NCBI GenBank assembly: GCA_013335535.1
Contig: JAAXVL010000006.1
Span: 124,001 to 188,000 of the forward strand
Length of the DNA: 64,000 bases
Origin: Azonexaceae bacterium
Lineage (GTDB): Bacteria; Pseudomonadota; Gammaproteobacteria; Burkholderiales; Rhodocyclaceae
Direction: 5' to 3'
Shown one piece after another: positions 3,200 through 58,720 of this stretch. The first letter of the stretch is position 1. Every line of letters begins with the position of its first letter. The notes beneath the pieces were generated by a model, which ran no database searches, was not told the origin of the DNA, and saw nothing but the letters and a program-made list of their open reading frames with translations. The position numbers and the translations under genes were made by a program.

Positions 3200-4258
3200 T
3201 CAGGCGCTGTACTGCTTGCCAACCCAGTTCTGGTAAGCGCCGCTGGTTACATTGGCTACCCAGGCCTGGTTATCGAGATACCACAGGACGGTTTTCCTGA
3301 TGCCTGTATCGAAAGTTTCAGCCGGTTTCCAGCCCAGTTCGCGCTCGATCTTGGTGGCATCAATGGCGTAGCGGCGATCATGGCCCGGGCGGTCAGTGAC
3401 GTAGGTGATCTGCTCCTTATAGAGCTTACCGTCGGCACGCGGGCTCAGTTCGTCGAGGATGGCGCACAGGGTATGCACGACATCCAGATTCGGCTTTTCA
3501 TTCCAGCCGCCAACGTTGTAGGTCTCGCCGACCTTGCCCGCTTCAAGCACACGGCGGATAGCGCTGCAGTGATCCTTGACGTAGAGCCAGTCACGAATCT
3601 GCTGACCGTCACCGTAGATGGGCAGCGCCTTGCCAGCCAACGCGTTGTGAATAACGAGCGGGATCAGCTTTTCCGGGAAGTGGTAGGGACCGTAGTTGTT
3701 GGAGCAATTGGTGGTCAGCACCGGCAGACCGTAGGTGTGGTGGTAAGCGCGGACCAGATGGTCGCTCGCTGCCTTGCTCGCTGAGTACGGACTGTTCGGC
3801 TCGTACTGGTGGGTTTCGGTAAAGGCCGGGTCATCCTTGGCCAGCGAGCCATAGACTTCGTCGGTCGACACATGGAGAAAACGGAATTCATTTTTGGCCG
3901 TTTTTTCCAGTTGACCGTGGAAAGCCCGCACCGCTTCGAGCAGGCGGAAGGTGCCAACGATATTGGTCTGGATGAAGTCTTCCGGGCCGTGAATGCTACG
4001 GTCGACATGCGATTCGGCAGCAAAATTGACCACTGCCCGCGGCTGATGCTCGGCCAGCAGCTTCGACACCAGATCGAAGTCGCCGATGCTGCCCTTGACG
4101 AAAATATGCCGCGCATCGCCACCGAGCGAAGCCAGGTTTTCGAGATTGCCCGCGTAGGTCAGCGCATCGAGGTTGATGACGGGTTCGTCGGACTGGGCCA
4201 GCCAGTCCAACACGAAATTACTGCCTATAAAACCTGCCGCACCGGTAACTAAAATCAT
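3200..4258 (-). CDS. rfbB: dTDP-glucose 4,6-dehydratase
   Basis: This 352-residue extended SDR enzyme converts dTDP-glucose to dTDP-4-keto-6-deoxyglucose. The NAD-binding motif GAAGFIG is at residues 6-12, the STDEVYG motif begins at 131, and the catalytic YSASK has Tyr158 and Lys162. Residues 113-125, just before the conserved [13 protein letters not shown] stretch, are encoded by one copy of the dispersed repeat described elsewhere; the frame is kept. It is followed within two bases by the rfbD remnant, and an unrelated gene interrupts the operon. Confidence 0.95.
3884..3922 (-). repeat. Dispersed repeat, copy A (inside rfbB)
   Basis: The minus strand reads TTCCACGGTCAACTGGAAAA followed by CGGCCAAAAATGAATTC. 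This matches the consensus TGCCACGGTCAACCGGAAAT then TTGGCCAAAAATGAAAT seen at seven other sites in the window. The 39 bases equal 13 codons, residues 113-125 of RfbB, read in the forward direction of the element. Confidence 0.8.
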
Positions 4259-4376
4259 GACAGCTCCATCAAAAATAACGACTCATAAAAGATTTTACTG
4301 CACCCCCTTGGTGCCAATCCCGGGTTTCTAAGGCAAACGCCCATTTTCCTTCAACCTCACTTTTGCCATTTACAGA

Positions 4377-5424
4377 CTAGCCAGCAAGCATCGCCAGCAC
4401 AGTTTGCTTTGCCACCCCACGCATTCGCTCGGCCGATTTTTGCAAACTTGCTTTCGGAGAACCATAGGGCAAGGCAAGGAGCGCCACGAATGCCAAATCA
4501 AGATCATCCCTTCGCCCTGTTTCAAGCAGGGCTTCAACCACCTCGGAAGCTTGGGCAATATCCTTTTCAACCTTCGTTTGAAATGACGCTGTCCGCTCTT
4601 GCGCGACCACCAGCTTGTGCAGCGCAAAACGAGCCGGGTCGGGCAAAGTGACCGGGATCGCGTAAGAACCAACCAGCAGACCCTGCGACAGTTGGCCGCC
4701 AATCAGGTAATCCGTGAATTTCAGTGGCTCTACGGGAATAGAAAGATCAGGAAAGTAATGCGGCGTATCGTCGCCCAATGTCTTTTGGATCGTCAAAAAA
4801 TCGATCTTCACCTTCGTCTTCCGACTCATCATCGATGTCGACGGGTGTTTGAGATTAAACCTCGGCACCTCAAAGAACGAATCATCAAGCTCCTTCATGA
4901 CCTCAGGCACGCAGATCGCATCCCCAGAATCCGGGATTGCCAGGCTAATGCCGGTCGGCCGTGCAAAATCCATGTCTGTTGTCTTGAGGCTGCAGCCCCA
5001 ACGAACCCCAAGTCAATTACCGATACCGGCAAATGCGTGCGAGCCAACCACCACCACGCCCTTGGAAAACAGACCACAACGTGCCAGCCATTCCAGCACC
5101 TTGAAATGCGCCGGTTCCACAGACATTCCGCCACTACCCACGAAAGCACGCGTCGTTGCCCGCAGTGGCATCTTCAGCCGTTTTTTTACGCTCAAGCAAA
5201 CTGCTGATCAGTGCCGTCGTCACCTCAATCTCAACACCAATCGACTTTCGCTTGAAGCGACCATCGGGTAACTTGATCTGCCAATAGACGTAGCGCTTCC
5301 CTCTCGCCGTATTGGTGTAAGGGCTGCCAACAACCCCATTTTCAAAGATCAAAACACCATACGCCATCGCCTCTTCGAGCAGTTGCGAATAGAGAGCCTG
5401 AGTGACGGCGCTTTGCAATTCCAT
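4377..5424 (-). pseudogene. Broken paralogue of the NTP_transf_8-type nucleotidyltransferase
   Basis: The pieces together cover a full-length relative of the protein at 1997-3046. The amino part (ATG 5424, with GKRYVYWQIKLPDG) is followed by a shift of reading frame near 5160. Then comes VVVGSHAFAGIGN, ended by an in-frame TGA at 5013-5015 where the intact copy has Asn-Met-Leu. The open frame continues as LGVRWGCSLKTTDMDFA to 4377. The third acidic motif KIDFLT is kept. One frameshift plus one stop make it a pseudogene unless the 198-residue carboxyl part, with an ATG at 4973, is expressed alone. That part lacks the GSHAF strand. Confidence 0.8.
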
Positions 5425-5438
5425 GAGCAATTCAGCAA

Positions 5439-5470
5439 GTTGTAGTACACAGAATAGCGTGTACTACAAC
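5439..5470. promoter_or_regulatory. Inverted repeat upstream of the broken nucleotidyltransferase
   Basis: Perfect 12-bp arms GTTGTAGTACAC (5439-5450) and GTGTACTACAAC (5459-5470) are separated by 8 bases. They lie 15-46 bases upstream of the ATG at 5424. Overall span (32 bp) and position mirror the repeat at 3050-3082 in front of the intact paralogue, although the arm sequences differ. It probably binds a dimeric regulator. Confidence 0.6.
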
Positions 5471-5660
5471 AACACATTCGATGACGGATAAATCCCCTCT
5501 CAAGACAATAGTGCTTGAAGACAAAACGGGCTATTCAGCGTAAGTACCCGGCATAGCGTCCACCCGACATACCCCTTCAACTAAAACCGCGGACTGAACT
5601 ACGTCCCTAAGCACCATCAAAACGAACGATGCCATCCCTGGCGAGATAGCAAGCAGAGCG

Positions 5661-15647: not shown

Positions 15648-15876
15648 AAGCTAACCCTTAAAATTCAATACAAACAAAACGATAGGAAATTTATCCGCGC
15701 CACAGTGGAACGCTCCGGCCATAATTAGCCAGCGTCGTAGCAAGCCAGTACAAGCGCCAGACCAAAACCCGGGTAACTTCTGGCAGTCATCTGCCTGACT
15801 TTCTGCTTGGCGAAGAAATTGCCCGAGCCATCGTTGATGAGCCGGACTGGATGATCCGAACTGCAGACTCGAGCAA

Positions 15877-15917
15877 TGCCACGGTCAACCGGGAAATTCG
15901 CCCAAAAATGAAATGTG
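15877..15917 (+). repeat. Dispersed repeat, copy B (glmS-ugd gap)
   Basis: Reads TGCCACGGTCAACCGGGAAA then TTCGCCCAAAAATGAAATGT. It abuts the 3' end of ugd (stop at 15919). A spurious reading frame on the minus strand (FHFWANFPVDRG) is the translation of this element and should not be annotated as a gene. Confidence 0.85.
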
Positions 15918-15918: not shown

Positions 15919-17085
15919 TCAATCCTTACCGAACAAATCCCGCGTATAGACCTTATTGACTACATCGCTGATATCGTCCGTCACGCGGTTCGCCACGATC
16001 ACATCGGCGACACGCTTGAATTCGGCCAGATCATTCACCACGCGTGAATGGAAAAACTCAGGCTGCGTCACCACAGGCTCGTAAACAATCACCTCAATGC
16101 CCTTGGCCTTGATGCGCTTCATGATTCCCTGGATGCTCGAAGCGCGGAAATTATCGGACCCCGCCTTCATGATCAGCCGATATACGCCCACCACCTTCGG
16201 CTTCATGCGCAGGATGCTATCCGCCACGAAATCCTTGCGGGTCGTGTTCGACTCGACAATCGCATGAATCAGGTTCTGCGGCACATCGCTGTAATTGGCC
16301 AGTAACTGCTTTGTATCCTTGGGCAGGCAATAACCGCCGTAGCCGAATGAAGGATTGTTGTAATGTCCGCCGATCCGTGGGTCCAGACTCACCCCATCGA
16401 TAATCTGCCGCGTATCCAGGCCGTGCGACTCCGCATAGGTATCCAGCTCATTAAAATACGCCACGCGCATCGCCAGATAGGTATTGGCAAACAACTTGAT
16501 CGCTTCGGCCTCAGTCGAGTTCGTCAACAAAACCTGCGCATCCTTGCTGACCGCACCTTCCTTCAACAAATCAGCAAACACCTGCGCCCGCTCTGAGCGC
16601 TCGCCCACAATAATCCGTGACGGATGCAAGTTGTCGTACAACGCCCGCCCCTCGCGCAAAAACTCCGGCGAAAAAATCACATTGTCGCAACCTAGTTCGG
16701 CCCGCAGTTTCTCGGTATAACCCACCGGCACCGTCGACTTGATCACCATCGTCGCAGTCGGGTTGATCGCCATTACATCCTTCACCACCGCCTCCACCGA
16801 GCGTGTGTTGAAGTAATTGGTCTCAACATCGTAATCGGTGGGTGTCGCGATGATCACGAAATCAGCCCCGGCATATGCCTCAGCCTTATCCAAGGTAGCG
16901 CGGAAATTCAGCGGCTTGTTCTGGAGAAAATCCTCAATCTCGTCATCGACAATCGGTGAGTGCTTCCGCTGCAGCATTGCCACCTTTTCCGGCACGATAT
17001 CCAGCGCAACCACCTCATGGTGCTGCGCCAGCAACATGGCATTTGACAAACCAACATAGCCGGTCCCGGCAATGGCAATTTTCAT
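15919..17085 (-). CDS. ugd: UDP-glucose 6-dehydrogenase
   Basis: This 388-residue protein closely resembles enterobacterial Ugd over its full length. It has the NAD motif GTGYVGL at residues 7-13, STVPVG, EFLREG, the catalytic Cys in [10 protein letters not shown] and the end VYTRDLFG. It oxidises UDP-glucose to UDP-glucuronate with two NAD+. In this cluster it implies an acidic, uronic-acid-containing polymer, consistent with the lyase at 18054-20324. It lies 15 bases downstream of the Alg13-like gene. Confidence 0.96.
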
Positions 17086-17100
17086 GACTAACCTTTTTAC

Positions 17101-17577
17101 TTACGAATGAATGAAATTCTTCAAATTGCTGATCAATTCCGGCGAGGCGAACTCTGATATACCCTCGCCGACCTTGATATTCGCCCGATCATCCAGATGC
17201 CGGGAAATATCCTCCGCCTCCCAAGCCACCGTGACGCCTGGTTTACCGCCCAACCATTTGGCAGTAGCCATCTGATGATCATTTCGATGCTCACCAAGCC
17301 CGGCCTTTCTCGGCATGATCAAAATCGGCTTCCGGTACTTCAGCGCCGTGAGAATCGAGCCCATCCCCGCATGTGAAACAATCAAGTCAGCTTCACGAAA
17401 AAGCGCATTTGCCTGATCCGGCGGCACGAAGTCTCTCGATTCCATATGAGCAGGCTTGAAATCAGCTGGGCCAATCTGAGCAAACGCCCGCTCTCCAGGA
17501 TTGCAGCCAACCCATGCATCAACGGCTTTTACCAAACGGTCGAATGCCAGTTGGGTCCCCACCGTAACCAGAATCAC
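17101..17577 (-). CDS. Alg13/PssE-like glycosyltransferase catalytic subunit
   Basis: This 158-residue GT28 carboxyl-type domain starts at GTG 17577, which overlaps the stop of the upstream gene (GTGA). The first residues ILVTVGTQLAFDRL and the donor-binding segment SHAGMGSILTALKYRKPILI are typical of Alg13/PssE. It should form a two-subunit UDP-sugar transferase with the membrane-anchored partner at 17574-18020, acting at the cytoplasmic face of the membrane. A longer frame upstream of the GTG only reads through the partner gene. Confidence 0.85.
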   Translation of the reverse strand: MILVTVGTQLAFDRLVKAVDAWVGCNPGERAFAQIGPADFKPAHMESRDFVPPDQANALFREADLIVSHAGMGSILTALKYRKPILIMPRKAGLGEHRNDHQMATAKWLGGKPGVTVAWEAEDISRHLDDRANIKVGEGISEFASPELISNLKNFIHS

Positions 17578-18020
17578 AGCACAGCCCCCCAAAATGCCGG
17601 TCCATCGGCCTTCGATAGATGCTGCCATTGAGTCACCCAGGCGCTTGCCCAGCGGCGCGCCTGCTTGCCCGAATTCGACAACTCCTCAGAGTTCGCAATG
17701 CTGTCTATCCAAACCGTTCTTGCACCAAGGAAGCGGCCAAAGAAAATCGCTGCAAACCCTGGTGCCGCACCAGTCGTGACCACCACATCGGGGCGCACCT
17801 TGAGCATGACCCAAGCCACCTCGACAAACATCTTCAATAAGGCAAGCTTGTTCCACATATTGGCATCGGTCACTGCGTATAGCTTGCCGCCCACGTCCTT
17901 GGCATAAGCCGCATTTGTGCTCAGAAACTCAACGTCAGCCCCTTCAAAAGCCGGACGCAAGCGAAGCAATTGCACCCAATGTCCTCCACCTGATGCCACT
18001 GCCAAAATTTTCCGTTTCAT
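17574..18020 (-). CDS. Alg14/PssD-like glycosyltransferase membrane subunit
   Basis: This 148-residue protein opens KILAVASGGGHWVQLLRLRP, the Alg14/PssD glycine-rich signature. A hydrophobic stretch (FVEVAWVMLKV) and TTGAAPGF follow. It recruits the Alg13-like catalytic subunit to the membrane. The stop codon overlaps the partner start, so the subunits are coupled. In exopolysaccharide loci such pairs add a glucuronosyl or GlcNAc residue to a lipid-linked sugar; the donor here is not determined. Confidence 0.87.
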   Translation of the reverse strand: MKRKILAVASGGGHWVQLLRLRPAFEGADVEFLSTNAAYAKDVGGKLYAVTDANMWNKLALLKMFVEVAWVMLKVRPDVVVTTGAAPGFAAIFFGRFLGARTVWIDSIANSEELSNSGKQARRWASAWVTQWQHLSKADGPAFWGAVL

Positions 18021-18053
18021 TGAATCGTTTCACCCATTTATAAGCTGAAATAG

Positions 18054-20324
18054 CTACTTAACAATCACACTTCCCGGCCCGACAGAAACAACATGCCCAG
18101 CAACTTTTACATTTGCTGTATTTCCCGAAAAAGTAACCACCTCCTGGGCTGTTGAGCAGTCCATGCGAAATACCGAAATAAAGACCGAATTTGAAGATGG
18201 CGATTTGTAAGCGAATCGATTCCAAAAATGCGGAAGAACCTTTCCAGAGTCCATTTCCGGCATGGGGCTATATCCCTGATTTGAGCTCAAAGAAATTGCA
18301 GCCGGTGCGGAGACGCTCAAACACATCTCGACCCCATCGCTATTCATACTGTAAGAGGAACCTGTACCGATTAGAGAAGAGGGAGTATGAAGATTCCACT
18401 CCCAACGACGAGGAATTGCGCTTGCGAGCTCATCAACCACGACAACCGTAGACGGTCTGATGAAAACAACCGTTCTGATGGCTTTCGATAGCGGAGGATC
18501 GAAAGCCGAAGCAGCATCGCCAGCCACCAAATCATAAGTAGCCGACTGAACAAAACGGGTTACGCGACCGACTTTTGCTTTTGTGCCAGTACCGGTATCC
18601 CCCAAGCTTTGCCCCTGCCCACCATCAAACGTAATAGCGTTATGTGCCCGTGTTTGCTTGTACCAATTCCGCCAATGCGGTGAATTGTAGTAATCGTAAT
18701 AACCGCTATCCATCGCCAAAACACGACCACGAGCATGAATCACGAAGGAATTCTGGTCGGCGTGCGAGTGATTGAACGAGCCTAAGGGGCTACTCTTAAA
18801 ATAGACAGAAACCCGGCCTCGATCCGCAAGTGAGCTGTGCATGGCAGCCCAACCGACCGACGGAAAATATATGGAATCCGCCAATCCGAGTGACTGGAAA
18901 CTAGGAACTTGAGAAACGGTATCGGGTGAAGAAAGCATCGAAAAATATCTCCGATCCTCCCCAAACAATTGCGACGAGTACCAGTCAAGCAATCCGGATG
19001 GGACCCGAGCCGAAAACGACTTCCCGTATCTAGCGATCGAACTAGCCATACGAACCTCTGCACCATCGCCAAAAACACCTTCCGGTGCTCCAGGGGGGAG
19101 AAAGTAAGCCATTAAGGCCCCGAAATTCTTGATCGCTGGCTTCTGATAATAATTAAACCCCGTTGACCAGCGCAACAAATCAAACAGCACTATAGATTCC
19201 GGAACATCCCAAACGCCGTAAGCGGTGCCATTCCCATAACCTCCGTCGTCACCACTCCAGGCAGGAAAAATTGCTGCATAGAGCGGAAATGATTCCGCAA
19301 ACCAGTTATCGGCATCAGGTACATCCTTGGCAAGTAAGGGTGCGGTAGCAACCAGATAACCAAGCGTGTATGAGTTAAATGAATTTAGCGGCCTGGCAGC
19401 GAGGCTCCCGTTTGCAACAATTGCATCGTAGAGCGCGCGATAACGGATCGTCGCCGAAGTCAGAATCTTATCCCGCTCACTCGCTGTCCAGTAGTCGTGG
19501 AACCAGTCAAAACCCACTGAAAGAATAAGCAATATCGTTCTAGATGCTTGAGTATGCGATATACGCCCGGTTGAACCATCTGGATCCCAGTTCGCCAGAT
19601 TCCTGACTCTAGCCATGGCCGCATCCCGCCAACGAGTATCCCCCTCCACAAGCCACAACAAACCAAGAGAGAGAACCAACTCCTGCTCGTCCTGCAACTG
19701 ATTCCTGATTTCGCCAACTGCCTGATTGGTAGCCGCACTCACAGGAAGCGTGTCAAAACGGTGAAGCGGCTCCACTGGCGCCGCAACAGAAAGTGATTTT
19801 TGAATTCTTTGCTTCAAAAGCAAAATATCATTTCGCCTGGAACCAGCAAACGATTTCTTCAATGAAAGCAAGTCATTGCCACGAGGCACCCCACGAGGAT
19901 GCGAGCGACTTATAGCGTCGGCCAACAACACCGAGGGCTTGCCCACAACGAAATTCTGAGCCTCCGGCCCCACCCTGAAACCCCGTTCGTCGCTCCAAAT
20001 CGCTGAAGCTCCCGACGACGTTTCCACGCGAACACGCCACCGATAAAGGCCTTGAGCAAGCGGCCCCGGCAGTTGAAGCCAATTCAACTTTACCCGATAT
20101 GAAAGCCACCCACTTTGCTCGGACCATACCTGCACTTCATAACCCGTAGACTTTGCCTGAGCCGGCCAACTGAAAACTGGCGGATTCTGAAGAACACTGC
20201 TCCCTGCCGTAGGCCGGACAGGCATCCCTAATGGATCGCTGTCCCACCAATCCGCGGCAACAGCCAACTGCGACAGCAGTCCCAATATAGCCAGGCACCA
20301 ACGCCAAGATTTACAAAGTTTCAT
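18054..20324 (-). CDS. Secreted heparinase II/III-family polysaccharide lyase
   Basis: This 756-residue protein has a signal peptide of about 24 residues (MKLCKSWRWCLAILGLLSQL, then AVAAD). An amino Fn3/DUF4962-like segment is followed by an alpha/alpha toroid and the heparinase II/III beta domain, with FNHSHADQNSFVIHARG and NWYKQTRAHNAITFDG. The start at ATG 20324 is chosen for the signal peptide and a GAGG site; an upstream extension is not protein-like. Lyases encoded inside exopolysaccharide operons trim or release the polymer in the periplasm. Uronic acid supply by Ugd fits the expected substrate. Confidence 0.85.
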   Translation of the reverse strand: MKLCKSWRWCLAILGLLSQLAVAADWWDSDPLGMPVRPTAGSSVLQNPPVFSWPAQAKSTGYEVQVWSEQSGWLSYRVKLNWLQLPGPLAQGLYRWRVRVETSSGASAIWSDERGFRVGPEAQNFVVGKPSVLLADAISRSHPRGVPRGNDLLSLKKSFAGSRRNDILLLKQRIQKSLSVAAPVEPLHRFDTLPVSAATNQAVGEIRNQLQDEQELVLSLGLLWLVEGDTRWRDAAMARVRNLANWDPDGSTGRISHTQASRTILLILSVGFDWFHDYWTASERDKILTSATIRYRALYDAIVANGSLAARPLNSFNSYTLGYLVATAPLLAKDVPDADNWFAESFPLYAAIFPAWSGDDGGYGNGTAYGVWDVPESIVLFDLLRWSTGFNYYQKPAIKNFGALMAYFLPPGAPEGVFGDGAEVRMASSIARYGKSFSARVPSGLLDWYSSQLFGEDRRYFSMLSSPDTVSQVPSFQSLGLADSIYFPSVGWAAMHSSLADRGRVSVYFKSSPLGSFNHSHADQNSFVIHARGRVLAMDSGYYDYYNSPHWRNWYKQTRAHNAITFDGGQGQSLGDTGTGTKAKVGRVTRFVQSATYDLVAGDAASAFDPPLSKAIRTVVFIRPSTVVVVDELASAIPRRWEWNLHTPSSLIGTGSSYSMNSDGVEMCLSVSAPAAISLSSNQGYSPMPEMDSGKVLPHFWNRFAYKSPSSNSVFISVFRMDCSTAQEVVTFSGNTANVKVAGHVVSVGPGSVIVK

Positions 20325-20337
20325 TTTGACCTCGAAA

Positions 20338-21429
20338 CTACTTACTACCAATGGCGTTATTTCCGAGTATTTTCTCGTAAAGATCGCAAATACGAGGCAA
20401 AACGCTCTGGACGCTATAACTCTCGCAAAACTTCGTCTCGCCACGCCGACCCATATCAATTCTCAAAGCCGGATCTTGAGCCAAATTCAGCATGGCAGCA
20501 GACAGCGCCCAAACATCCCCAACAGGCACAAAAAGAGCCTCTGCCTGATTCTGGATAGTCTCCGGAATAGACCCGACAGGGCAGATAACGACAGGCAAGC
20601 CAAAACTCATTGCCTCAAGCATGGAGATCGGCAAGCCCTCAATATGAGATGGGAGAACGAACACATCCGACTCACGAAGGAGACGCTGCTTCTCCTCCCC
20701 AACAACCCAACCGGGGAAAACCACCTTGTCAGTAATACCCAAATCCGCCGCACGTCTCTGGCACACATCCAACTCGCCGTTCCCGCACAAAACCAGTCTA
20801 GCGCAGGGAAATACCCGTACAACGTCGGCAAAGGCGGCCAATAAATCGTAGACGCCTTTATCTTTCTCCAGGCGACCAAGGAAAACAAAGACCACTTCGC
20901 CGCTTGCATCCTTGATTTTGTGAGTAGTCAAAGGAGGAATCACAGGGTTCTCAATCACGACACACTTAGATGGAGAAACAATCCCCTCCAACCGACCAAC
21001 CCAAGCCTGAGACAAAACAACAATATTTCTCGCGCGGCCAAACAACCACCTAACGAAGCGCTGCCCGATGGACGGCAAATTGGCAAAAAACTCTACGAAA
21101 TTTCCGCCGTGCACATGAAGAATGACGGGTCGGAAAAAGCTATAAGCCAAAAGCACAAAAAAAGCCTTACGCCAAAAGCTGATGCCAGACGCCACATGAA
21201 CATGAACCAAACCGACTCGACAAAACAGCAACGCACCAAGAAATCTAAACGCGGCAACAAGCGCTGCAGCCATCTTGTGAAAACGCGAGCCATACCCTAC
21301 CGGCGAAACATAAATAATCCGATACTGATCAAATAAGCCGCCATCACGATAGGCGGCAGAAACGGCAGACATTCCACCCTGCCCATCTACCGGAGTTCCA
21401 ACCATGATTACGCGACGGCAAGACATCAC
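20338..21429 (-). CDS. Glycosyltransferase family 4
   Basis: This 363-residue GT-B retaining glycosyltransferase opens VIMVGTPVDGQGGMSAVSAA in the acceptor domain. The carboxyl Rossmann domain carries FLGRLEKDKGVYDLLAAF and the EX7E-like segment SHIEGLPISMLEAMSFGLPV. It should add one sugar of the repeat unit at the cytoplasmic face. Its ATG overlaps the preceding stop and it ends 13 bases before the lyase gene. The sugar is not predictable from sequence alone. Confidence 0.9.
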   Translation of the reverse strand: MMSCRRVIMVGTPVDGQGGMSAVSAAYRDGGLFDQYRIIYVSPVGYGSRFHKMAAALVAAFRFLGALLFCRVGLVHVHVASGISFWRKAFFVLLAYSFFRPVILHVHGGNFVEFFANLPSIGQRFVRWLFGRARNIVVLSQAWVGRLEGIVSPSKCVVIENPVIPPLTTHKIKDASGEVVFVFLGRLEKDKGVYDLLAAFADVVRVFPCARLVLCGNGELDVCQRRAADLGITDKVVFPGWVVGEEKQRLLRESDVFVLPSHIEGLPISMLEAMSFGLPVVICPVGSIPETIQNQAEALFVPVGDVWALSAAMLNLAQDPALRIDMGRRGETKFCESYSVQSVLPRICDLYEKILGNNAIGSK

Positions 21430-22790
21430 TAAAACGCTCTTACGACAACTCGCAACTTCCCGTTGGAAGTTCTCGGCACGCTTTCGACATGCTTCACGCT
21501 AATGCGCAATCCATCCCCCAACTGTTCCCGAGCTCTGGCAACAGTATCCTCGTCATCAAAAGGCTTACCTGGAACAGGAACAACAAGAATTGTCACCTCG
21601 TCCGGTGACTCTTGGCGAACCTGACCTTCGAGCAAATTGGGAATAGCATCCAGCATATTGCTCATCATGAATACATGCCTTCCGTCCGGCATCAAAACAT
21701 AGTCCTCGACACGACCAACAATACTTTCCACCACAGGGAAAGAGCGACCACAAGGACAAACATAGTTTGGATCAGCAGGGACAACAGAATCGCCCAAACG
21801 ATAACGAATCCATGGCATCAAGAAATTATCAAATGACGTACCAACCACCTCACAAGTACCATCACCCTGTGGAATCAGTTCGGTATATCCATAGTCAGAA
21901 TTGACGTGATAATTCCCGTGTTCGCAGGTACCAATAAAGGTCACACGCTCAGCCGAGCAATATTGATCAAAAATCTGGCAGCCAAAGGCCTCCTCAACCA
22001 GCTTCCGATGCTCACCGGTAACCGTTTCACTTGAAGTAACAAACCCTCTCAAACTCTTTCCGCGATATTTTCGGCCAGCACTGATCATGTATCGAGCCAA
22101 GAGCAAAACAGGCGATGGATACGCCATACCGAACACAGGATCGAACTCCTCCAATGCACGGATATAAGACTCTGCACTCTGCTCCGACAGATGATAAGCC
22201 GACATCATCAGCGTGTTATCAGCGCGGCTGAAACGCCAAAATGGGGGGTTCGTAACCTTCGAAGGAACAATCTGATCACCGCGAATCCAAACCCGACGAT
22301 CACCATGCTTGGCCCCTGCCCAAATACTTTGGCGCCAGTTAAACGCACTCTCACGATTGATCGAATGAAGATCACGAACAACTCTCATCGACATGCCCGT
22401 GGTACCGCTCGTAGAATTTTCGAATCGGGGCCCTTTAAAATTCTGAGCAAGCATCTGATCCCCGGCTGAAAAAGCATCGCGTTTTGTCAAAAACGGAATC
22501 AGCTTCACATCCTCCAGTGAAGCCAGCTGATCAGGCACAAAGCCAGCCTTGGCAAATGCCTCGCGGTAATACGGAACGTTATTCGCCGCAAACCGAACGA
22601 CCTTTTGCATTCTGGCCAACTGAAGCGCTTCCAACGCGCTGCGATCAAGCCATTGGCTACGGAGAACCTCATCTAGTTCGCGCCGGAAGACAGCCCCTTC
22701 CCGAAGCGCACCACGAACAAATCCGCGAGCAGAAAGCAAAGTATTTTGAAGCCATACCGGGCTATCTCGGTAAATTCTATAAGAGTACAT
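21429..22790 (-). CDS. CapK-like / phenylacetate-CoA ligase-family adenylate-forming enzyme
   Basis: This 453-residue protein carries the AMP-binding signature STSGTTGMSMRV near residue 130, EHRKLVEEAFGCQIFDQYCSAE, the WIRYRLGD motif and the carboxyl end SVPRTSNGKLRV. A Cys pair (YVCPCGRSFP) resembles a metal site found in the family. Members in capsule and exopolysaccharide loci (CapK) are thought to activate an acid for attachment to the polymer; the substrate is unknown. It is transcribed with the glycosyltransferases and overlaps the next gene by one base. Confidence 0.85.
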   Translation of the reverse strand: MYSYRIYRDSPVWLQNTLLSARGFVRGALREGAVFRRELDEVLRSQWLDRSALEALQLARMQKVVRFAANNVPYYREAFAKAGFVPDQLASLEDVKLIPFLTKRDAFSAGDQMLAQNFKGPRFENSTSGTTGMSMRVVRDLHSINRESAFNWRQSIWAGAKHGDRRVWIRGDQIVPSKVTNPPFWRFSRADNTLMMSAYHLSEQSAESYIRALEEFDPVFGMAYPSPVLLLARYMISAGRKYRGKSLRGFVTSSETVTGEHRKLVEEAFGCQIFDQYCSAERVTFIGTCEHGNYHVNSDYGYTELIPQGDGTCEVVGTSFDNFLMPWIRYRLGDSVVPADPNYVCPCGRSFPVVESIVGRVEDYVLMPDGRHVFMMSNMLDAIPNLLEGQVRQESPDEVTILVVPVPGKPFDDEDTVARAREQLGDGLRISVKHVESVPRTSNGKLRVVVRAF

Positions 22791-22843
22791 AACAATTTGT
22801 AAAATATATTGGTTGAATCTTTAATAAACGAAAAAACTGACGA

Positions 22844-23422
22844 TTAAACCTGTGCTTTGTTAAATACATCTTCGCAAATACCCGATTTGGCAACAAATGA
22901 CGGATTTCCAATAACCAAAGAAAACGGTGAAACACTCTTGTTAACAAAAGCTCCAGCGGCGATACGACTTCCTCTACCAACCACAACATCACCAACGATA
23001 GTTGCATTTGGCCCAACCCAAACATTGTCCTCCAATGTTGGATAGCCAATAATTCGCTCATTACAATCAGAGAAACGATCTGCCCTCCCTAAAGTAACGC
23101 CGTGAAAAAGAGTAACATTGGAGCCGATCTTGGCTCCTTCACTAATTACAAGCCCCCACCCATGCGTTATTGCCAGTCCTGGACCTATATTCGTCCTCCA
23201 AGGCAAATCGACACCAGCAAGTTGGCAAAATACAACGTGGAAAAATTTAGCAAATGGCAAAATAGTTCGCCTTACCAGAAAACCTTTCCCGTACAAAAAC
23301 TGACACACTCGGAGCGATATAAGAACCCGATGGGTACGAGAAAAAATAAGACCGAACACAACATCACGAAATCGTACACGGCCATGTTTTCTATACGAAT
23401 CAAAATACAATATATCTATCAA
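22844..23422 (-). CDS. Serine acetyltransferase-like hexapeptide acyltransferase
   Basis: This 192-residue protein has left-handed beta-helix hexapeptide repeats (IGPGLAITHGWGLVISEGAK, then GSNVTLFHGVTLG and VWVGPNATIVGDVVVGRGSRI). It is CysE-like but lacks the long amino-terminal helical domain of housekeeping CysE. Placement in the exopolysaccharide operon suggests O-acetylation of the polymer or its precursor rather than cysteine synthesis. Local base composition is AT-rich. Confidence 0.85.
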   Translation of the reverse strand: MIDILYFDSYRKHGRVRFRDVVFGLIFSRTHRVLISLRVCQFLYGKGFLVRRTILPFAKFFHVVFCQLAGVDLPWRTNIGPGLAITHGWGLVISEGAKIGSNVTLFHGVTLGRADRFSDCNERIIGYPTLEDNVWVGPNATIVGDVVVGRGSRIAAGAFVNKSVSPFSLVIGNPSFVAKSGICEDVFNKAQV

Positions 23423-23439
23423 TTAAATAGCCCAAATAA

Positions 23440-24690
23440 TTAAACGTTCGCGGAAATACAGCCTGCAAACAAAAACGCGCTCTTTGCCGCTTGATCTTTC
23501 CAAACAGGAATTTGCTTCTCAAGTTGAGAGCGGATCTCAGAATCTCTTTTCTCCAATACACCCAAATAATTAATTAAGGAGTCGCAAGAGTATTTCGGCG
23601 TGGGCAAAACAAAATCTTCATGACCAAACAGATCCAAGTTTATCCCTCTTGCCTTTATGCTATAGGCAATGGAAATGGTAGGAACCCCTGTAGAAAGAGC
23701 TGCGATTGTTGCGTGAGTACGGCCACCAATAAAATAATGGCACTTAGAAATAACGTCTTTAAGCTGACAACAGTTTAAACCAGAAGGAGTCACCAAAAGG
23801 CGCGAGTTTTTCTGCGAAACTAACTTTTTAACTTCATCCAAAAAAACCTCATCGTTATTAAATTTATCTCCGTTTAATGGCGCAACGTGAGGAACGAGAA
23901 GTACGCAATACGACGTCTCTTTTAGAATGTAATCAATAAAATTAGCTGTCTCGGAAATTACCGACAAATCACTGCCATATTTTTTTAGTGAAATTTGCAT
24001 CACTTCACTAACGTTTAGCCCAATCAACTTCCCCCCAACGTTGCTCCCTAAAAAAACAGCGGGGTCTACCGATTGACGATTTAACGCAAACGCCGAATCC
24101 ACGACGGACTGCAAGCTCTTCACTGCCCCTATTGATTTTAGATAGTTAACTGAATGACTTTCCCTTACCGAGACCAAGTTCATTCTATTTAAATGGTTAA
24201 CCATCCCCTTCTCTACAAAACCATCCTGGCTAAACGGACCAACCGAAGCACCCCACAAAGCAGTTTTTTTGCCTAACTCCATTGCTCGCTCAGCAATACC
24301 AACAAAGAAAAACAGTGAAACCACTCCATAATCCAGTGAATAATTGTCTCCGCCAATAGACACAACGGCATCTGCCTTTTGCAAATACTCCTCAAGATTC
24401 GGCAATCCGCGCAGCGAAGGCCATTTTCTGGATTTCAAAAACGGCACCAGGCGGCATAACCTTCCCCACCAGCGGTAGCTGGCCGGAACCCGTGGTGCAG
24501 GAACGAAGGTCACGCCATTTTCTGCGGCCTCTGGCCATTGAGCAGAATCGCGCGGAATGTCAAAGGACGGGACAAGAAAATGTGCATCCTTGATTTGCGT
24601 TCGCAGGGTTGCAACTGTTGAGCGCACAAGCGCCTCGCATCCGCGATTGCCAAAATTGTTCTGACCCGTTAGGTAGATTGTCGTAGCCAT
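23440..24690 (-). CDS. Polysaccharide pyruvyl transferase family protein
   Basis: This 416-residue protein has the amino signature GQNNFGNRGCEALVRSTV, a central VSIGGDNYSLDYG and the carboxyl GGRTHATIAALSTGVPTISI, all typical of PF04230. It would transfer pyruvate from phosphoenolpyruvate to a hexose to form a ketal, giving the polymer extra negative charge. It lies 17 bases upstream of the acetyltransferase gene and its AT content is high, as for its neighbour. Confidence 0.9.
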   Translation of the reverse strand: MATTIYLTGQNNFGNRGCEALVRSTVATLRTQIKDAHFLVPSFDIPRDSAQWPEAAENGVTFVPAPRVPASYRWWGRLCRLVPFLKSRKWPSLRGLPNLEEYLQKADAVVSIGGDNYSLDYGVVSLFFFVGIAERAMELGKKTALWGASVGPFSQDGFVEKGMVNHLNRMNLVSVRESHSVNYLKSIGAVKSLQSVVDSAFALNRQSVDPAVFLGSNVGGKLIGLNVSEVMQISLKKYGSDLSVISETANFIDYILKETSYCVLLVPHVAPLNGDKFNNDEVFLDEVKKLVSQKNSRLLVTPSGLNCCQLKDVISKCHYFIGGRTHATIAALSTGVPTISIAYSIKARGINLDLFGHEDFVLPTPKYSCDSLINYLGVLEKRDSEIRSQLEKQIPVWKDQAAKSAFLFAGCISANV

Positions 24691-24702
24691 AATTTTTTCG
24701 AA

Positions 24703-25719: not shown

Positions 25720-25746
25720 GGCCATCCAACAAAATACGTAAAGCAA

Positions 25747-31437: not shown

Positions 31438-31459
31438 TGGCAGGCCTTGGGCGAATGAT

Positions 31460-31499
31460 TGCCACGGTCAACCGGAAATTTGGCCAAAAAATGAAATGT
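31460..31499 (+). repeat. Dispersed repeat, copy C (epsG-xrtB gap)
   Basis: Reads TGCCACGGTCAACCGGAAAT then TTGGCCAAAAAATGAAATGT, the copy closest to consensus. It lies 23 bases upstream of the xrtB start, in opposite orientation to the gene, so it occupies the 5' untranslated or promoter region. Confidence 0.85.
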
Positions 31500-32507: not shown

Positions 32508-33953
32508 TCAGGCCTTGGCTGCGGCGGGCTGATTGCCGGTTTTAAGTGCGGGTTTGCGATTGCCACGGTCAACCGGATTTTTTGCCCAAAATCGAAATCC
32601 GCTTTTGGCCTTGCTATTCGTCGAATCGAGTTCGGCCAGCACGGGCAGGTCGAGCGCCAGGGCGAGGTCTTCGGCTGAACGGATGCGACGTTGGCTGAGT
32701 TCGAGCACGAGTGCAGCACCTACGCCGAGCATGGTGCCGAGGAAGATGGAGACCAGTACGTTGAGGAAAACCTTGGGGCGCGAATGCATGGTCGGCTCGG
32801 TAGCCGGGCTGAGCACGAGCACGTTGGTCTGTTGCGACTGACCCTCAAGGTTGCTTTGCGTCATGCGCTGGCCGACGGCCTCGTAGGCTTTCCGCGCCGT
32901 TTCAACGTCGTTAACCAGCACGCTGAGTTCGTCGCGCTCCGAGCGGATGGCGAGGACGCGCTTTTTCTGCTCTTCGATAGCCTTCTTAAGCTCTTCCTGC
33001 TTGACGACGCCGAACTTGCTGGCGACGGCATTTCCACCCGAAATGCGACCAATTTCTTCGCGCAGTTGCTGGCGTTGCTCGGCGATCTGGGCTTCTAGCT
33101 GCTGGACTTGCGGGTGGTTCTTGCCGAGGTTGCTGCTGATCTGCGACAGCTGCGATTCGGCACGGGCAATTTCGGCCTTGAGGTTCTGGATCAGCGGGTT
33201 TTGCAGCACTTCGAGCGACAGTTCGCTGGTGCCGCTCTTTTGCCGGCTGGAGGCGTCGGCGCGCTGGGCCTGGGCGGCGGAAAGCTGGGCGGTCAGGTCG
33301 TTAAGGCGGGCAGTTTCGTTGTCAATGCGGTCGTCGGTCACGACGATGCCTTTCTCCTGTTGGTAGGCGGAAAGGCGGGACTGGGCTTTTTCCAGCGCGG
33401 CGCGCAGGCCTTTCTGGCGTTCTTCGAACCAGGCGCTGTACTGGCGGGCCGGCTCGACGCGCATTTCGATGGAAGTGTCGATATAGGCCTGCGCGAAGGC
33501 GTTGGCGACGGCGGCAGCAAATTGCGGGTCGGCACCGGAGAAGTTGATGTTGATGACGTTGCTCTCGCGGGAAGGCTTGATGTCGAGCTTCCTTTGCAGA
33601 ATGTTGGCGTAGTAGCTTTCCAGCGTACCCTTGCCTTGGCTGGCTTCCTTCCACTTCTCGACGGCTTCGGCGCTCTTCTCGAAACCAAGCAGCTTGACGA
33701 CGCGGGAGGCCACGCGGTCGCTGTTAATGATGTCCATCTGCGTCGCCATGTAGCCCGGCGCCATCATGCCCTGCATGATCATGCCGGCGATGGGGTCGGG
33801 TGACTTGACGTCGATGACCAGCGAGGTGGTGGCGGTGTATTCCTTGGGCAGGATTAGGCTGATGACCAGCGTGGTCAGCACCGTGACGCCAAAAATCGAC
33901 AACGCCAGCTTGCGGCGCGCCCAGAGAATGAGGAGGAATTGCTGAAAAGTCAT
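32508..33953 (-). CDS. epsF: EpsF chain-length determinant (Wzz/GNVR family)
   Basis: This 481-residue inner-membrane polysaccharide co-polymerase has a transmembrane helix at about 15-35, the Wzz domain, a long coiled coil (about 170-360) and the GNVR-type segment leading to a second helix near 400-425. The short cytoplasmic tail contains residues 452-465 (GFRFWAKNPVDRGN), encoded by an antisense copy of the dispersed repeat. The tail after the second helix is therefore partly repeat-derived. It partners with EpsG and the exporter EpsE. Confidence 0.92.
   Translation of the reverse strand: MTFQQFLLILWARRKLALSIFGVTVLTTLVISLILPKEYTATTSLVIDVKSPDPIAGMIMQGMMAPGYMATQMDIINSDRVASRVVKLLGFEKSAEAVEKWKEASQGKGTLESYYANILQRKLDIKPSRESNVININFSGADPQFAAAVANAFAQAYIDTSIEMRVEPARQYSAWFEERQKGLRAALEKAQSRLSAYQQEKGIVVTDDRIDNETARLNDLTAQLSAAQAQRADASSRQKSGTSELSLEVLQNPLIQNLKAEIARAESQLSQISSNLGKNHPQVQQLEAQIAEQRQQLREEIGRISGGNAVASKFGVVKQEELKKAIEEQKKRVLAIRSERDELSVLVNDVETARKAYEAVGQRMTQSNLEGQSQQTNVLVLSPATEPTMHSRPKVFLNVLVSIFLGTMLGVGAALVLELSQRRIRSAEDLALALDLPVLAELDSTNSKAKSGFRFWAKNPVDRGNRKPALKTGNQPAAAKA
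32561..32599 (+). repeat. Dispersed repeat, copy D (inside epsF 3' end)
   Basis: Reads TGCCACGGTCAACCGGATTT then TTTGCCCAAAATCGAAATC. It lies within the last 30 codons of epsF and is read from the opposite strand, giving FRFWAKNPVDRGN. Unlike copies A and F it is translated in the reverse direction of the element. Confidence 0.85.
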
Positions 33954-40412: not shown

Positions 40413-40453
40413 CATTTTGAATTTTGGGCAAAATTTCCGGTTGCCCGTGGCAA
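40413..40453 (-). repeat. Dispersed repeat, copy E (intergenic)
   Basis: The minus strand reads TTGCCACGGGCAACCGGAAA then TTTTGCCCAAAATTCAAAATG. It has a G for T change in the GGTCAA block. It lies 86 bases after the GIY-YIG stop in a 309-base gap with no other gene. Confidence 0.8.
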
Positions 40454-41353: not shown

Positions 41354-41716
41354 TCAGCGTATTCGCGGGGGCGTTGATGATTCCCCGGTTGACGATGGCG
41401 ACAAAGGTGTGGGCGGTGAAGGCGATGGTGGCGGGCTGGAATAATCCGGAAGAATCGCCGGCATGGGCGCAGCGGCCCTTGCCCGTGCATTTTCGGCAGC
41501 CTGCCTCTCGGTATAGGCCTTCTGTCGCTCTAGCTCTTTTCGTGCGGCCTCCGGATCGGACACCGACTCGCTCGGGCTTATCTTTTCGATTACCGACCCC
41601 TTTTCACATGGCACGTCGGAATAGACAACATCTCCGGAACGCGTGTGGCAGGTAAAGACATCAGCTTGGGAGGCAGAGGAAGCAAGCAGCAGTACAACAA
41701 GGATGGCGTAGCGCAT
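41354..41716 (-). CDS. Secreted DUF4124-type protein
   Basis: This 120-residue protein has a signal peptide (MRYAILVVLLLASSASQA). The DUF4124 core reads DVFTCHTRSGDVVYSDVPCE, with two Cys that may form a disulfide. A helical segment and a Pro/Ser-rich tail with repeated PPSP units follow. ATG 41716 is chosen for the signal peptide. Periplasmic; function unknown in the family. Confidence 0.75.
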   Translation of the reverse strand: MRYAILVVLLLASSASQADVFTCHTRSGDVVYSDVPCEKGSVIEKISPSESVSDPEAARKELERQKAYTERQAAENARARAAAPMPAILPDYSSPPPSPSPPTPLSPSSTGESSTPPRIR

Positions 41717-45865: not shown

Positions 45866-46816
45866 GTGGGCATCGTCGCCACCCTGCAGCAAAAACTGTT
45901 TCGCTGGCAGAGCGACGGCACGGCGCCCTTGCGCCTCGGCCAGCGCCGCGTCTTCATCATTCCCTCGCGCGGCGGCCTGCTCTACGCCCTGGCGCTCATC
46001 GTCATGCTCATCGGCGCCATCAACTACAACCTGGCGCTCGGCCATGCGCTGGTTTTCCTGCTCGCCGGGCTGGGCCTCGTCGGCATGATCCACACCTTTC
46101 GCAACCTGCACGGACTGATCATCACGCCGGGGCGCAGCGGGCCGGTGTTCGCCGGCGAAACGGCGCATTTCCAGATCACGCTCGACAACGACCGCACCAC
46201 CCCGCGTCTCGGGCTGGAACTGGAAGCCGAAAGCGGCCATCCGGTGTTTGCCACGGTCAACCGGAAAAAAAGCACAAAATTGAATATCCCGGTCAGCGCC
46301 AAAAAACGGGGCTGGCTTACCCTGCCGCGCGTCCGCCTGTCCACGCGCTATCCGCTCGGCCTGTTCACCGCCTGGGCCTACCTGCAGCCGGCCATGCGCT
46401 GCCTGGTCTATCCGCAACCGATAGGCGCCCCGCTCCCCCCGGCCTCGCCGACGCCGGTCGGCGGTGAGCGCAGCGGCGATGGCGGCCAGGAGGATTTCGC
46501 CGGATTCCGCGAACGTCAGCCGGCCGACTCGCCGCGCCACGTCGCCTGGAAAGCCAGCGCCCGCAACGCCAACGGCCCCTTGCTGATCAAGCAATTCGCT
46601 GGCGGCGCACAAGTTGAACTGCGGCTCGACTGGCAACTGACCGACGCCGGCCTGGCCGACGAAACCCGCCTCGGCATCCTGACCGGCTGGGTGCTCGCCG
46701 CCGACGCGGCCGACGCCCATTACGGTCTGCGCCTGCCCGGCGTGGACATCCCGATCGGCAGCGGCGAGCGGCATCGCCAGCTTTGTCTCGAAGCCCTCGC
46801 GCTCTACCAGCCATGA
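45866..46816 (+). CDS. DUF58 family protein
   Basis: This 316-residue protein starts at GTG 45866, five bases after the MoxR stop. Two membrane helices lie at about residues 38-55 and 58-78, then a beta-rich region. The DUF58 signature is FRERQPADSPRHVAWKASAR, then NGPLLIKQF. Residues 128-141 (FATVNRKKSTKLNI) are encoded by a forward copy of the dispersed repeat. It overlaps the transglutaminase gene by four bases. Confidence 0.9.
   Translation: MGIVATLQQKLFRWQSDGTAPLRLGQRRVFIIPSRGGLLYALALIVMLIGAINYNLALGHALVFLLAGLGLVGMIHTFRNLHGLIITPGRSGPVFAGETAHFQITLDNDRTTPRLGLELEAESGHPVFATVNRKKSTKLNIPVSAKKRGWLTLPRVRLSTRYPLGLFTAWAYLQPAMRCLVYPQPIGAPLPPASPTPVGGERSGDGGQEDFAGFRERQPADSPRHVAWKASARNANGPLLIKQFAGGAQVELRLDWQLTDAGLADETRLGILTGWVLAADAADAHYGLRLPGVDIPIGSGERHRQLCLEALALYQP
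46248..46287 (+). repeat. Dispersed repeat, copy F (inside the DUF58 gene)
   Basis: Reads TTGCCACGGTCAACCGGAAA then AAAAGCACAAAATTGAATAT. The left half is perfect, the right half is diverged. It is translated in the forward direction as FATVNRKKSTKLNI, in a frame different from the one used in rfbB. Confidence 0.75.
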
Positions 46817-53362: not shown

Positions 53363-53406
53363 CACCCATTAAAAAAACCGGCAATTGCCGGTTTTTTTAA
53401 TGGGTG
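53363..53406. terminator. Perfect 44-bp palindromic bidirectional terminator
   Basis: Each half is CACCCATTAAAAAAACCGGC plus AA, exactly complementary to the other half. The core CCGGCAATTGCCGG hairpin is flanked by seven A and seven T. It isolates the H-NS promoter region on the left from the minus-strand gene ending at 53539 on the right. Confidence 0.9.
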
Positions 53407-53486: not shown

Positions 53487-53525
53487 TTGCCACGGTCAAC
53501 CGGAAAATTCGGCCAAATTTGAAAC
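53487..53525 (+). repeat. Dispersed repeat, copy G (intergenic)
   Basis: Reads TTGCCACGGTCAACCGGAAA then ATTCGGCCAAATTTGAAAC. It lies 13 bases beyond the 3' end of the minus-strand gene at 53539-53832, in the gap with the 44-bp palindrome. Confidence 0.85.
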
Positions 53526-54526: not shown

Positions 54527-54587
54527 CGCACAATTCCTTATCAAACGCAGAGAGCGCCCGCCGGCGCTACGCTCCTTCAATACAGCA

Positions 54588-54619: not shown

Positions 54620-54625
54620 CATGCA

Positions 54626-56188: not shown

Positions 56189-56219
56189 GCGGAAACTCCT
56201 GTTGGCTTATGACAATGTA

Positions 56220-56993: not shown

Positions 56994-57109
56994 GGAGGCT
57001 CCTGAGTTGAACAAGTTTATGCAAACCAACTTGCAGCCCAGCTTAAATTCCATTTGTTACAAATAATGCAGCGCGTGCCTTAGCCGAAATAAATCTTGAT
57101 GGAATGCAA

Positions 57110-57144
57110 AACGGCACTTTCTCCCACCGGGAAAAAGTGCCGTT
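57110..57144 (-). terminator. Terminator of the oligomer-hydrolase gene
   Basis: AACGGCACTTT (57110-57120) and AAAGTGCCGTT (57134-57144) pair perfectly around a 13-base loop; on the minus strand the stem ends in a short T-run (GTTTTGC). It follows the stop at 57175 and precedes the PEP-CTERM gene. Confidence 0.65.
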
Positions 57145-57174
57145 GCGAATGCCGGCCGGAAAGCCGGCGCTGGA

Positions 57175-58671
57175 TCAGGGCGCCAGCAGTTCCGGGCAAT
57201 GACCGGCCTGGGCCGGGGTATCGGCGATGGCTGCACCGCGTCCGATACATTGATCGGGCGGCAGTGCCTTGCCCTGCTCGACGTGGCTGACCAGCAGGTC
57301 GAAGGCACGCTGGGCATGCGGCTGGATCAGTTCCAGCTGCGGCAAGCTGAGCTTGTAGGTTTCGATGTGGTTGCCGTTCTGCACCTCGTAGAGGCGGTAG
57401 GCCGGGTCGCGGCGATGGCCGTGGCGGCGGTCGTCATCGTCCCCTCGCTCGTCCGTGCTGGCGGCCACCTTGCGGGCGTAGGCGCGAGCATGGTGGTCGA
57501 TGGGCAACAGCGCATCCATGGTGCCGGCGACGGTGATGAGCGGACGCTTGATGCGGCCGGTCGTGGCGAAATCGGCGACGGTGTCGTCGGCCTTCGACAC
57601 AGGCAGGCGGCCGATATAGTTGTAATCTCCCGGGCCGCTGCCGTAGGTGTCGTAGGCCGGATCGACGCGCTTCTGCCACTGGCAGAGCGTGACTTCCCAG
57701 AAGGACGCCGAGTTCATGGCCCACAGCGCGGTCGCACCGCTGCCCAGATCGGGCGGGAAGCCGGCGCCACGGATGTTCTTCGCGGCAGTGCTGGCGGCAT
57801 CGGCGCCGCTGGCCACGTAGTCGGGATAGTTGCGCACGGCGACCGGCAGGTCGGTCAGCAGGTTCGGGCCGTTTTCATCGACGAAGGTACCTTCCCAATC
57901 GACGCCGCCATCGAACCAGTCGGGCGCCGACTCGACGGCACGCCGAACCTGGTAGGCGCCGTTCGAGGTGCCGACCGCGTAGGTGTAGCGCGGCGACTTG
58001 CCGTAATTGGCTGCCGCGCCTTTGTGGGCGAGTTTGGAGGCGAGCACCATGTAGTCGCGCCAGCGCGTGAATTCCTGGCCCGGGCCGTTATCGTAGAACT
58101 GGACCCACAGCGGCGAACTCGGGTTCAGGCGGCAGGCCAGTGGGTCGCTGGCATCGCTGAATTTGAGGTTGAGCACGCCCTTGTTCTGCGAGGCGTAGGC
58201 GTAGCCCTTCTGGACGACGTAATCGCTCCAGGCGAAGTCACCGTTGAATTCGCTGCGCGTGCCGGACGCCCCAGCAACAACAAGGCGACCGTTCCATTTG
58301 GCCGGCAGACGCAACAGGAAGCGGGCCTGGCCGGTCGGATCGCTGGCGATCCGCGCATTGAGCTGGACACCGGGCACGGGGCCGGCGATGGGCGTGCGGT
58401 TGGCAGCATCCGGCGCGATGGTCGCGCGGTCGGTCTGTGGCGTGAAGGCGAAGGGCGGCAGGCCGGGCAGCGAGTTGTTGGCTGGCGTGGTGGCCGGGTT
58501 GGCCGTCGTCAGGTCGGCACTATCGACACAGCTGACATCAGCCAGTTGATTGCCGAAAGCCTGGATCAGGACACTGCAGCGGTCTGCCTGGGCGGCGCCG
58601 GCACCGAGCAGCATGAGCAGCGCGCTGAGGCAGCGCACAGCCGGGCGTGACATGATTTTTGGTCTTTTCAT
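57175..58671 (-). CDS. Secreted 3-hydroxybutyrate-oligomer hydrolase-like / tannase-like esterase
   Basis: This 498-residue protein has a signal peptide (RCLSALLMLLGAGAAQA). An alpha/beta-hydrolase of the tannase/3HB-oligomer hydrolase group follows: LPAKWNGRLVVAGASGTRSE, the nucleophile elbow GTSNGAYQVRRAVE, a late Asp region (AGTMDALLPIDHHAR) and NGNHIETYK with the likely catalytic His. Which ester it cleaves is not certain. ATG 58671 is chosen; a longer frame to 58731 only adds residues translated from repeat copy H. Confidence 0.75.
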   Translation of the reverse strand: MKRPKIMSRPAVRCLSALLMLLGAGAAQADRCSVLIQAFGNQLADVSCVDSADLTTANPATTPANNSLPGLPPFAFTPQTDRATIAPDAANRTPIAGPVPGVQLNARIASDPTGQARFLLRLPAKWNGRLVVAGASGTRSEFNGDFAWSDYVVQKGYAYASQNKGVLNLKFSDASDPLACRLNPSSPLWVQFYDNGPGQEFTRWRDYMVLASKLAHKGAAANYGKSPRYTYAVGTSNGAYQVRRAVESAPDWFDGGVDWEGTFVDENGPNLLTDLPVAVRNYPDYVASGADAASTAAKNIRGAGFPPDLGSGATALWAMNSASFWEVTLCQWQKRVDPAYDTYGSGPGDYNYIGRLPVSKADDTVADFATTGRIKRPLITVAGTMDALLPIDHHARAYARKVAASTDERGDDDDRRHGHRRDPAYRLYEVQNGNHIETYKLSLPQLELIQPHAQRAFDLLVSHVEQGKALPPDQCIGRGAAIADTPAQAGHCPELLAP

Positions 58672-58682
58672 GTTTTGTCTCC

Positions 58683-58720
58683 ATTTCGATTTTGGGGATT
58701 TTTTCCGGTTGACCGTGGAA
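58683..58720 (-). repeat. Dispersed repeat, copy H (upstream of the esterase gene)
   Basis: The minus strand reads TTCCACGGTCAACCGGAAAA then AATCCCCAAAATCGAAAT. It lies 12 bases before the ATG at 58671, so it occupies the 5' untranslated region of the esterase mRNA or its promoter. Confidence 0.85.

Follow-up and report, generated by a model that had tools for sequence, protein, structure and literature searches.

The 64-kb window analysed here is a stretch of the genome of an Azonexaceae bacterium (G000; 4.25 Mb, a draft of 72 contigs) and carries eight copies of a dispersed 39-bp motif, which is probably the uptake signal of a natural-transformation system. A first-pass annotation had listed eight copies, three of them inside reading frames; all eight are present, within 1-2 bases of the places given, and the three intragenic positions were confirmed. 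These are 3885..3923 (-), inside open reading frame (ORF) 3200-4258-, which encodes an rfbB-like nucleotide-sugar dehydratase; 32560..32598 (+), within the 3' end of ORF 32508-33953- (GNVR/Wzz family); and 46248..46286 (+), inside ORF 45866-46816+, where the peptide reads ...ATVNRKKSTKLN... The last of these frames had no Pfam match and is flanked by a MoxR-type AAA gene and a TgpA/transglutaminase gene. The copy at 15876..15914 (+) has ORF 13824-15647- on one side and ORF 15919-17085- (UDP-glucose/GDP-mannose dehydrogenase family) on the other, that at 31459..31497 (+) is situated between ORF 30535-31437- (exosortase EpsH) and ORF 31632-32501-, and that at 53487..53525 (+) between ORF 52983-53300- and ORF 53810-54622-. 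The copy at 40415..40453 (-) was judged intergenic, the listed frames that overlap it all being short. At 58683..58721 (-), the longest form of ORF 57175-58731- (a weak 3HBOH match) touches the copy; because an ATG preceded by GGAG is found past the copy, the latter was counted as just upstream of the probable start of this gene.

A weight matrix trained on contig C1 of the same genome returned exactly these eight sites in the window, with scores of 52-61 (cut-off 12). When up to 3 mismatches were allowed, nine matches to the 15-mer were found in the window, compared with a mean of 2.77 and a maximum of 8 in shuffled sequence (0/100 shuffles with nine or more). The ninth match, at 41385 (-), was without the right half and was dropped as background. 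Since the nearest named relatives of the rfbB-like protein are from Betaproteobacteria metagenome-assembled genomes, Azonexus and Dechloromonas, the genus under study was taken to be Azonexus/Dechloromonas (Rhodocyclaceae).

The first-pass annotation had proposed a whole-genome count, and the result was far above chance: with at most one mismatch, the 14-mer heart of the motif occurs 322 times forward and 315 times in reverse in G000 (637 in total), and the reversed-pattern control occurs twice (1+1). The motif was modelled on 800 kb of contig C1 that was read closely. The 147 C1 copies with at most one mismatch gave a consensus of 39 bp, from -3 to +35, TTKCCACGGTCAACCGGAAAAAW.GSCCAAAATTGAAAT, and its flanks hold almost no information. 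Perfect copies of the 14-mer outnumber those with one mismatch on C1 (83 vs 64), and a further 38 have two. The matrix has a total information of about 51 bits, of which the share of the heart is inflated, since copies were selected by the heart. It found 183 sites on C1 (113 + and 70 -), an average of about 1 per 4.4 kb; block-shuffled DNA scanned with the same cut-off gave no site. Uptake sequences typically number from hundreds to thousands and have a very strong consensus, and the motif shares this trait. The C1 sites are spaced more evenly than random (coefficient of variation 0.69), and only three pairs of neighbours are less than 200 bp apart, all of them abutting head-to-head.

The right half of the motif had been described as variable; it is instead a structured part. 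The layout of AT-rich DNA was determined with the 10-mer as the only anchor, in seven of the 40 motif-rich genomes described below (G000, G147, G175, G161, G195, G218, and G155). In all seven, two AT-rich segments lie beyond the heart at the same spacing, about 11 bp from each other. The AT content was 0.58-0.83 at +12..16 and 0.71-0.79 at +22..27, compared with 0.16-0.24 between the segments and a background of 0.36-0.42. The 7/7 rich genomes examined thus have the arrangement of the Pasteurellaceae uptake signal sequence (USS), in which a pair of AT-rich segments lies downstream, separated by about one helical turn. This arrangement was seen neither in motif-poor G169 (0.47, 0.46, and 0.36 on a background of 0.41) nor in G355 (12 sites in 67.5 kb), the only high-count genome from outside the family that was examined.

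A search of related genomes had also been suggested, and some of them carry the motif while others are without it. Across 150 genomes of the family, the 14-mer with one mismatch occurs at most nine times in each of the 146 from outside the genus, and 637, 99, 21, and 9 times in the four from within it. The shorter pattern YRCGGTCRAC was then counted over 76 genus genomes, with the cut between rich and poor placed at the gap in counts (406 to 567). Forty genomes are rich (567-2440 copies, a ratio of 2.5 or more to the reversed control) and 36/76 are poor (109-406 copies, at most 2.0 times the control), with little excess. The highest count in the family outside the genus is 322. The control is imperfect: some low-count genomes that do not belong to the genus have ratios above 2.5 (G009, 248 vs 75; G103, 322 vs 120). 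In a sample of the order, 5/291 genomes outside the family reach at least 567, and in three of these (G355, G486, and G498) the ratio exceeds 2.5; all five genomes are larger, with 98-154 copies per Mb, compared with a minimum of 159 per Mb among rich congeners. Unbiased counts gave CACGGTCAAC as the top 10-mer in G000, CACGGTCGAC in G147, TGCGGTCGAC in G175, and ACGGTCAACC in G195; GTCAACCGGA and TGCGGTCAAC ranked high in G218 and CGCGGTCGAC second in G155. The ranking listed none in G161, for which only 80 kb was used, and none of the motif kind in G169. The logos show dialects that have CGGTCRAC in common, so that related species share the motif in dialects, as is usual for uptake sequences. 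Contig C1 of G147 also carries a second over-represented repeat, GGAAGCCCCGG-like; in 200 kb, where the expected count is about 1, AAGCCCCGGA is present 23 times and CGGGGCTTCC 24 times.

How the copies arose was assessed by alignment with relatives. At 46248, 30/30 aligned genus sequences were ungapped, and those without the motif carry other sequence of equal length. At 3885, 79/80 named relatives were ungapped and the remaining one had 31 extra residues; at 32560, 12/12 aligned relatives were ungapped. At the intergenic site 31459, the motif was present ungapped in 8/12 relatives, the others being diverged, rearranged or unaligned; in G207, a tandem array of CCCTCATTTACT-like units stands in its place. 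Window copies compared with their orthologues in G195 (4/8 copies covered) and G161 (5/8) had 94-95% identity inside the motif and 83-85% in the flanks, with no gaps. The copies are thus better conserved than their own flanks. Against motif-poor G169, of which 760 kb was used and in which the G000 matrix found one site, 15/183 C1 sites could be aligned, nine ungapped and six gapped. Copies in genes come by substitution; the same may hold for intergenic copies, a conclusion that we draw less firmly.

These alignments bear on the suggestion in the first-pass annotation that the repeat could be a miniature mobile element, to be recognised at orthologous loci by clean insertion and target duplication. 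Neither was seen at the aligned sites, and the ungapped alignments at 46248 and 3885 rule out a mobile element for the aligned coding sites. A strong consensus with sharp edges, the three abutting head-to-head pairs and the 32 bases missing at one site in G169 would suit a miniature mobile element or recombination cassette that spread by copying. However, gaps are absent from two well-covered coding sites and from the window sites compared with G195 and G161, species without the motif have other sequence of the same length, reading frames are preserved, and the dialects are species-wide, all of which makes such an element very improbable. Rickettsia palindromic elements and REP/RAYT repeats, which multiply by copying and mostly form palindromes or hairpins, are likewise short, dispersed and in some cases intragenic, whereas the coding sites here show substitution instead. 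A phage or plasmid origin was also rejected: a 42-bp copy had no match at E 0.01 in either collection, although with so short a query this is weak evidence. The exact 17-mer is present in five viral contigs.

The placement of the sites relative to genes was determined on C1 with a simple purpose-made gene finder, by which genes occupy 92% of the contig. Ninety-two sites lie in genes, 86 between genes, and 5 at edges. Within genes, one orientation is favoured 61:31 (p=0.002) and one frame dominates, and the strands are balanced both in G000 (322/315) and over the 40 rich genomes (25345/25550). Uptake sequences have the same trait of no overall strand bias with a favoured orientation in reading frames; such a preference in genes is described for all uptake-sequence genomes examined (PMC2346458). 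Between genes, sites are commoner in convergent than in divergent gaps (25/49 vs 13/76 as counted, p=1e-4), a preference that would be expected of transcription terminators or RNA signals. However, half of the sites are intragenic, a single copy is not a hairpin-plus-T-run, the Rfam scan of the window gave one tRNA only, and the preference for convergent gaps is explained by the avoidance of promoters. We therefore regard a terminator or RNA signal as the least credible of the explanations weighed here.

Many specific chromosomal sites are also a feature of matS, KOPS, and parS, which are regional or strand-polarised; MatP binds matS and FtsK reads KOPS. A cytoplasmic chromosome-organising or segregation protein might similarly bind the motif, with selection keeping its sites spread over the chromosome, and the genome-wide spread, the even spacing (coefficient of variation 0.69), and the long, specific motif are all compatible with it. 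Because the GC-skew minimum of C1, at about 128 kb, lies amid four parS-like sites (87-141 kb), the replication origin is probably near this position. The palindrome GTTTCACGTGAAAC, which we take to resemble parS, clusters at 87249, 95065, 124395, and 141144 on C1 of G000 and at 17779, 26169, and 87016 on C1 of G155. A strand bias relative to the replication origin, another check named in the first-pass annotation, was not significant: 102/183 sites are in leading-strand orientation (p=0.14), other placements of the origin gave 99 to 105 of 183 with a lowest p of 0.054, and site density on C1 has no steep change with distance from the inferred origin. Unlike matS, KOPS or parS, the motif is therefore without significant polarity relative to this origin. 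It is also absent or near-absent in 36/76 congeners, and its sites and spacing show more precision than a regulatory-type site would be expected to have, an argument made for the USS in PMC1626085. A chromosome-organising protein is thus unlikely, if less so than a mobile element, and a generic protein-binding site with copies dispersed along the chromosome, also among the options first named, is conceivable but explains less than an uptake signal does.

Competence genes were sought in the 76 genus genomes. A PF03772 (ComEC) match was found in 71/76, including 51/51 of those of good quality, and a TIGR00426 (ComEA-type) match in 75/76, above the cut-off in 67/76. In G000, comEC is in two pieces on contig C33, the DUF4131 part in frame 108724-109611 and the Competence and beta-lactamase-fold part in frame 143332-144873. 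The intervening 33.7-kb stretch (C33:109611-143332) has a GC content of 51.6%, compared with 60-64% in its flanks, and encodes a phage-type integrase, a type-B DNA polymerase, a D5-type protein, and an impB/mucB-type polymerase. This island has no motif sites vs 7.7 expected (p=0.0005), and the 5' comEC piece carries one. Of 172 5-kb blocks in C1 and the window, four have a GC content below 52%, all without sites. Taken with the island, these blocks indicate that the motif is scarce in recently acquired DNA, as uptake sequences are. In G202, a second species, comEC is likewise split, by about 32.5 kb (C1:2218693-2251157), and the gene is possibly a recurrent integration site. In motif-poor G169, the ComEC domain lies in two abutting pieces in different frames (C1:1959178-1959913).

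Collectively, the consensus, balanced strands, even spacing, and opposed pairs match the profile of uptake sequences (PMC1626085, PMC3630211, PMC7811141, PMC1939737, and PMC2346458, for the traits described there), as do the half of sites in genes, their favoured orientation, their origin by substitution, the dialects, and the absence from some relatives and from acquired DNA. From this pattern in the genomes, the motif is probably the uptake signal of a natural-transformation system in Azonexus/Dechloromonas, which is the best supported of the options that the first-pass annotation had named. As described in PMC1626085, the Pasteurellaceae USS resembles it: the core is followed downstream by two AT-rich segments spaced by about a helical turn, perfect copies exceed near misses in number, copies arise by substitution and many of them are in genes, subgroups have their own dialects, some close pairs are opposed, and there is no overall strand bias. 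The core here, CCACGGTCAACCGG, genus-wide CGGTCRAC, does not match the USS cores AAGTGCGGT (Hin type) and ACAAGCGGT (Apl type), although some dialects read GCGGT, shared with the USS possibly by chance. The first AT segment presumably lies further from the core than in the USS. The USS has a density of about 1 per kb, compared with 1 per 4.4 kb here, its hosts belong to another bacterial class, and its length is given as up to about 32 bp (PMC12616744), compared with 39 bp in this species. The DNA uptake sequence (DUS) of Neisseriaceae (GCCGTCTGAA and dialects), with the receptor ComP, is likewise hosted by Betaproteobacteria. According to PMC3630211, it too is found genome-wide, within and between genes, with family dialects and loss in some relatives, and accumulates in shared rather than acquired DNA. 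However, the DUS is described as a continuous motif of 10-13 nt without AT segments (PMC12616744, PMC1626085), and the motif here matches neither this form nor the CTG core and is unrelated in sequence. DUS hairpin pairs are commonly terminators, whereas in the three pairs found here T-runs precede the stem and A-runs follow it.

Several observations weigh against an uptake signal. The USS and DUS, for which one copy per kb is quoted, are about four times as dense, and the motif here is also longer than they are. On C1 alone, the + strand is in excess (113:70, p=0.002), and replication does not explain this. In the G169 alignments, 6/15 sites were gapped vs 4/30 control stretches (26/30 ungapped), and at one site 32 bases were absent, with the gap extending past the motif. 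The TIGR00426 match is below the cut-off or absent in nine genomes, including 5/40 rich ones (G172, G180, G184, G200, and G218); this model also matches non-competence proteins and is weak evidence either way. No receptor for the motif was found with the marker tried, a GspH/FimT scan, whose matches in 69/76 genus genomes do not discriminate rich from poor. In the open-licence PubMed Central (PMC) papers searched, no report of transformation in Azonexus/Dechloromonas was found. The split comEC of G000 implies a recent loss of competence. Over the genus, comEC is not full-length in 7/31 poor vs 3/36 rich genomes (p=0.17), with a full-length frame in many poor species; this table rests on frame lengths and leaves out 9/76 genomes (five without a match and four with partial matches taken as contig ends), and some of the short frames may be contig ends as well. 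Loss of comEC as the cause of motif loss was accordingly set aside as a trend only.

It is quite possible, though we do not favour it, that the motif is a former uptake signal in this species, with the machinery no longer used and the copies left as remnants. The two-piece comEC of G000 with its integrase-bearing island fits such a history, recent competence losses in Pasteurellaceae mostly keep strong USS in the account of PMC1626085, and a former signal in this species does not conflict with the genus-wide reading as an uptake signal. However, the consensus is still very sharp, so any loss must be recent; the island might leave the gene again, and the genome is a 72-contig draft.

Uptake function, receptor, and drive are what we infer for the uptake signal. 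A surface DNA receptor, probably a type IV minor pilin, would bind the heart YRCGGTCRAC, and the two AT-rich segments, one helical turn apart, would ease bending or melting of the DNA as it is drawn across the outer membrane; from there, the DNA would presumably take the usual ComEA/ComEC route and recombine. Fragments that match better would enter more often and displace the resident allele, and matches could in this way accumulate through point mutation and biased recombination wherever genes tolerate them. If the preference of the receptor drifted, the dialect would follow, and if competence were lost, the motif would erode.

The first-pass annotation knew of no named family with this core, and literature searches agree: in open-licence PMC papers, no report of the motif letters or of uptake sequences in Azonexus/Dechloromonas was found. 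A 2025 paper names Neisseriaceae and Pasteurellaceae as the only families known to distinguish their own DNA by such motifs (PMC12616744). Judged from the genomes, environmental Betaproteobacteria likely have a third family of uptake sequences in this motif, one that is apparently independent of the others and combines the core-plus-two-AT geometry of the Haemophilus USS with several dialects and repeated losses within the genus. If so, the DNA-entry machinery itself would impose this geometry. With such a third lineage, which would not be host-bound and is already represented by 76 species genomes (40 rich and 36 not), it could be tested why uptake bias evolves, how receptor and motif change together when dialects shift, whether DNA entry mechanically requires AT segments one turn apart, and at what rate the motif erodes once competence has gone. 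Such a signal might also be used to transform the Azonexus and Dechloromonas strains that serve in pollutant and nitrogen-oxide research.

Two further features of the window were observed. The stretch from 16000 to 31000 has a GC content of 47-53%, contains no motif copy, and ends at the exosortase EpsH and Wzz/GNVR genes; from a scan that covered a minority of its genes, it looks like an acquired polysaccharide-export locus. At 53363-53406, about 80 bp before the motif copy at 53487, lies a perfect 22-bp inverted repeat with 0 nt between its arms and a T-run in the arm, which resembles a terminator.

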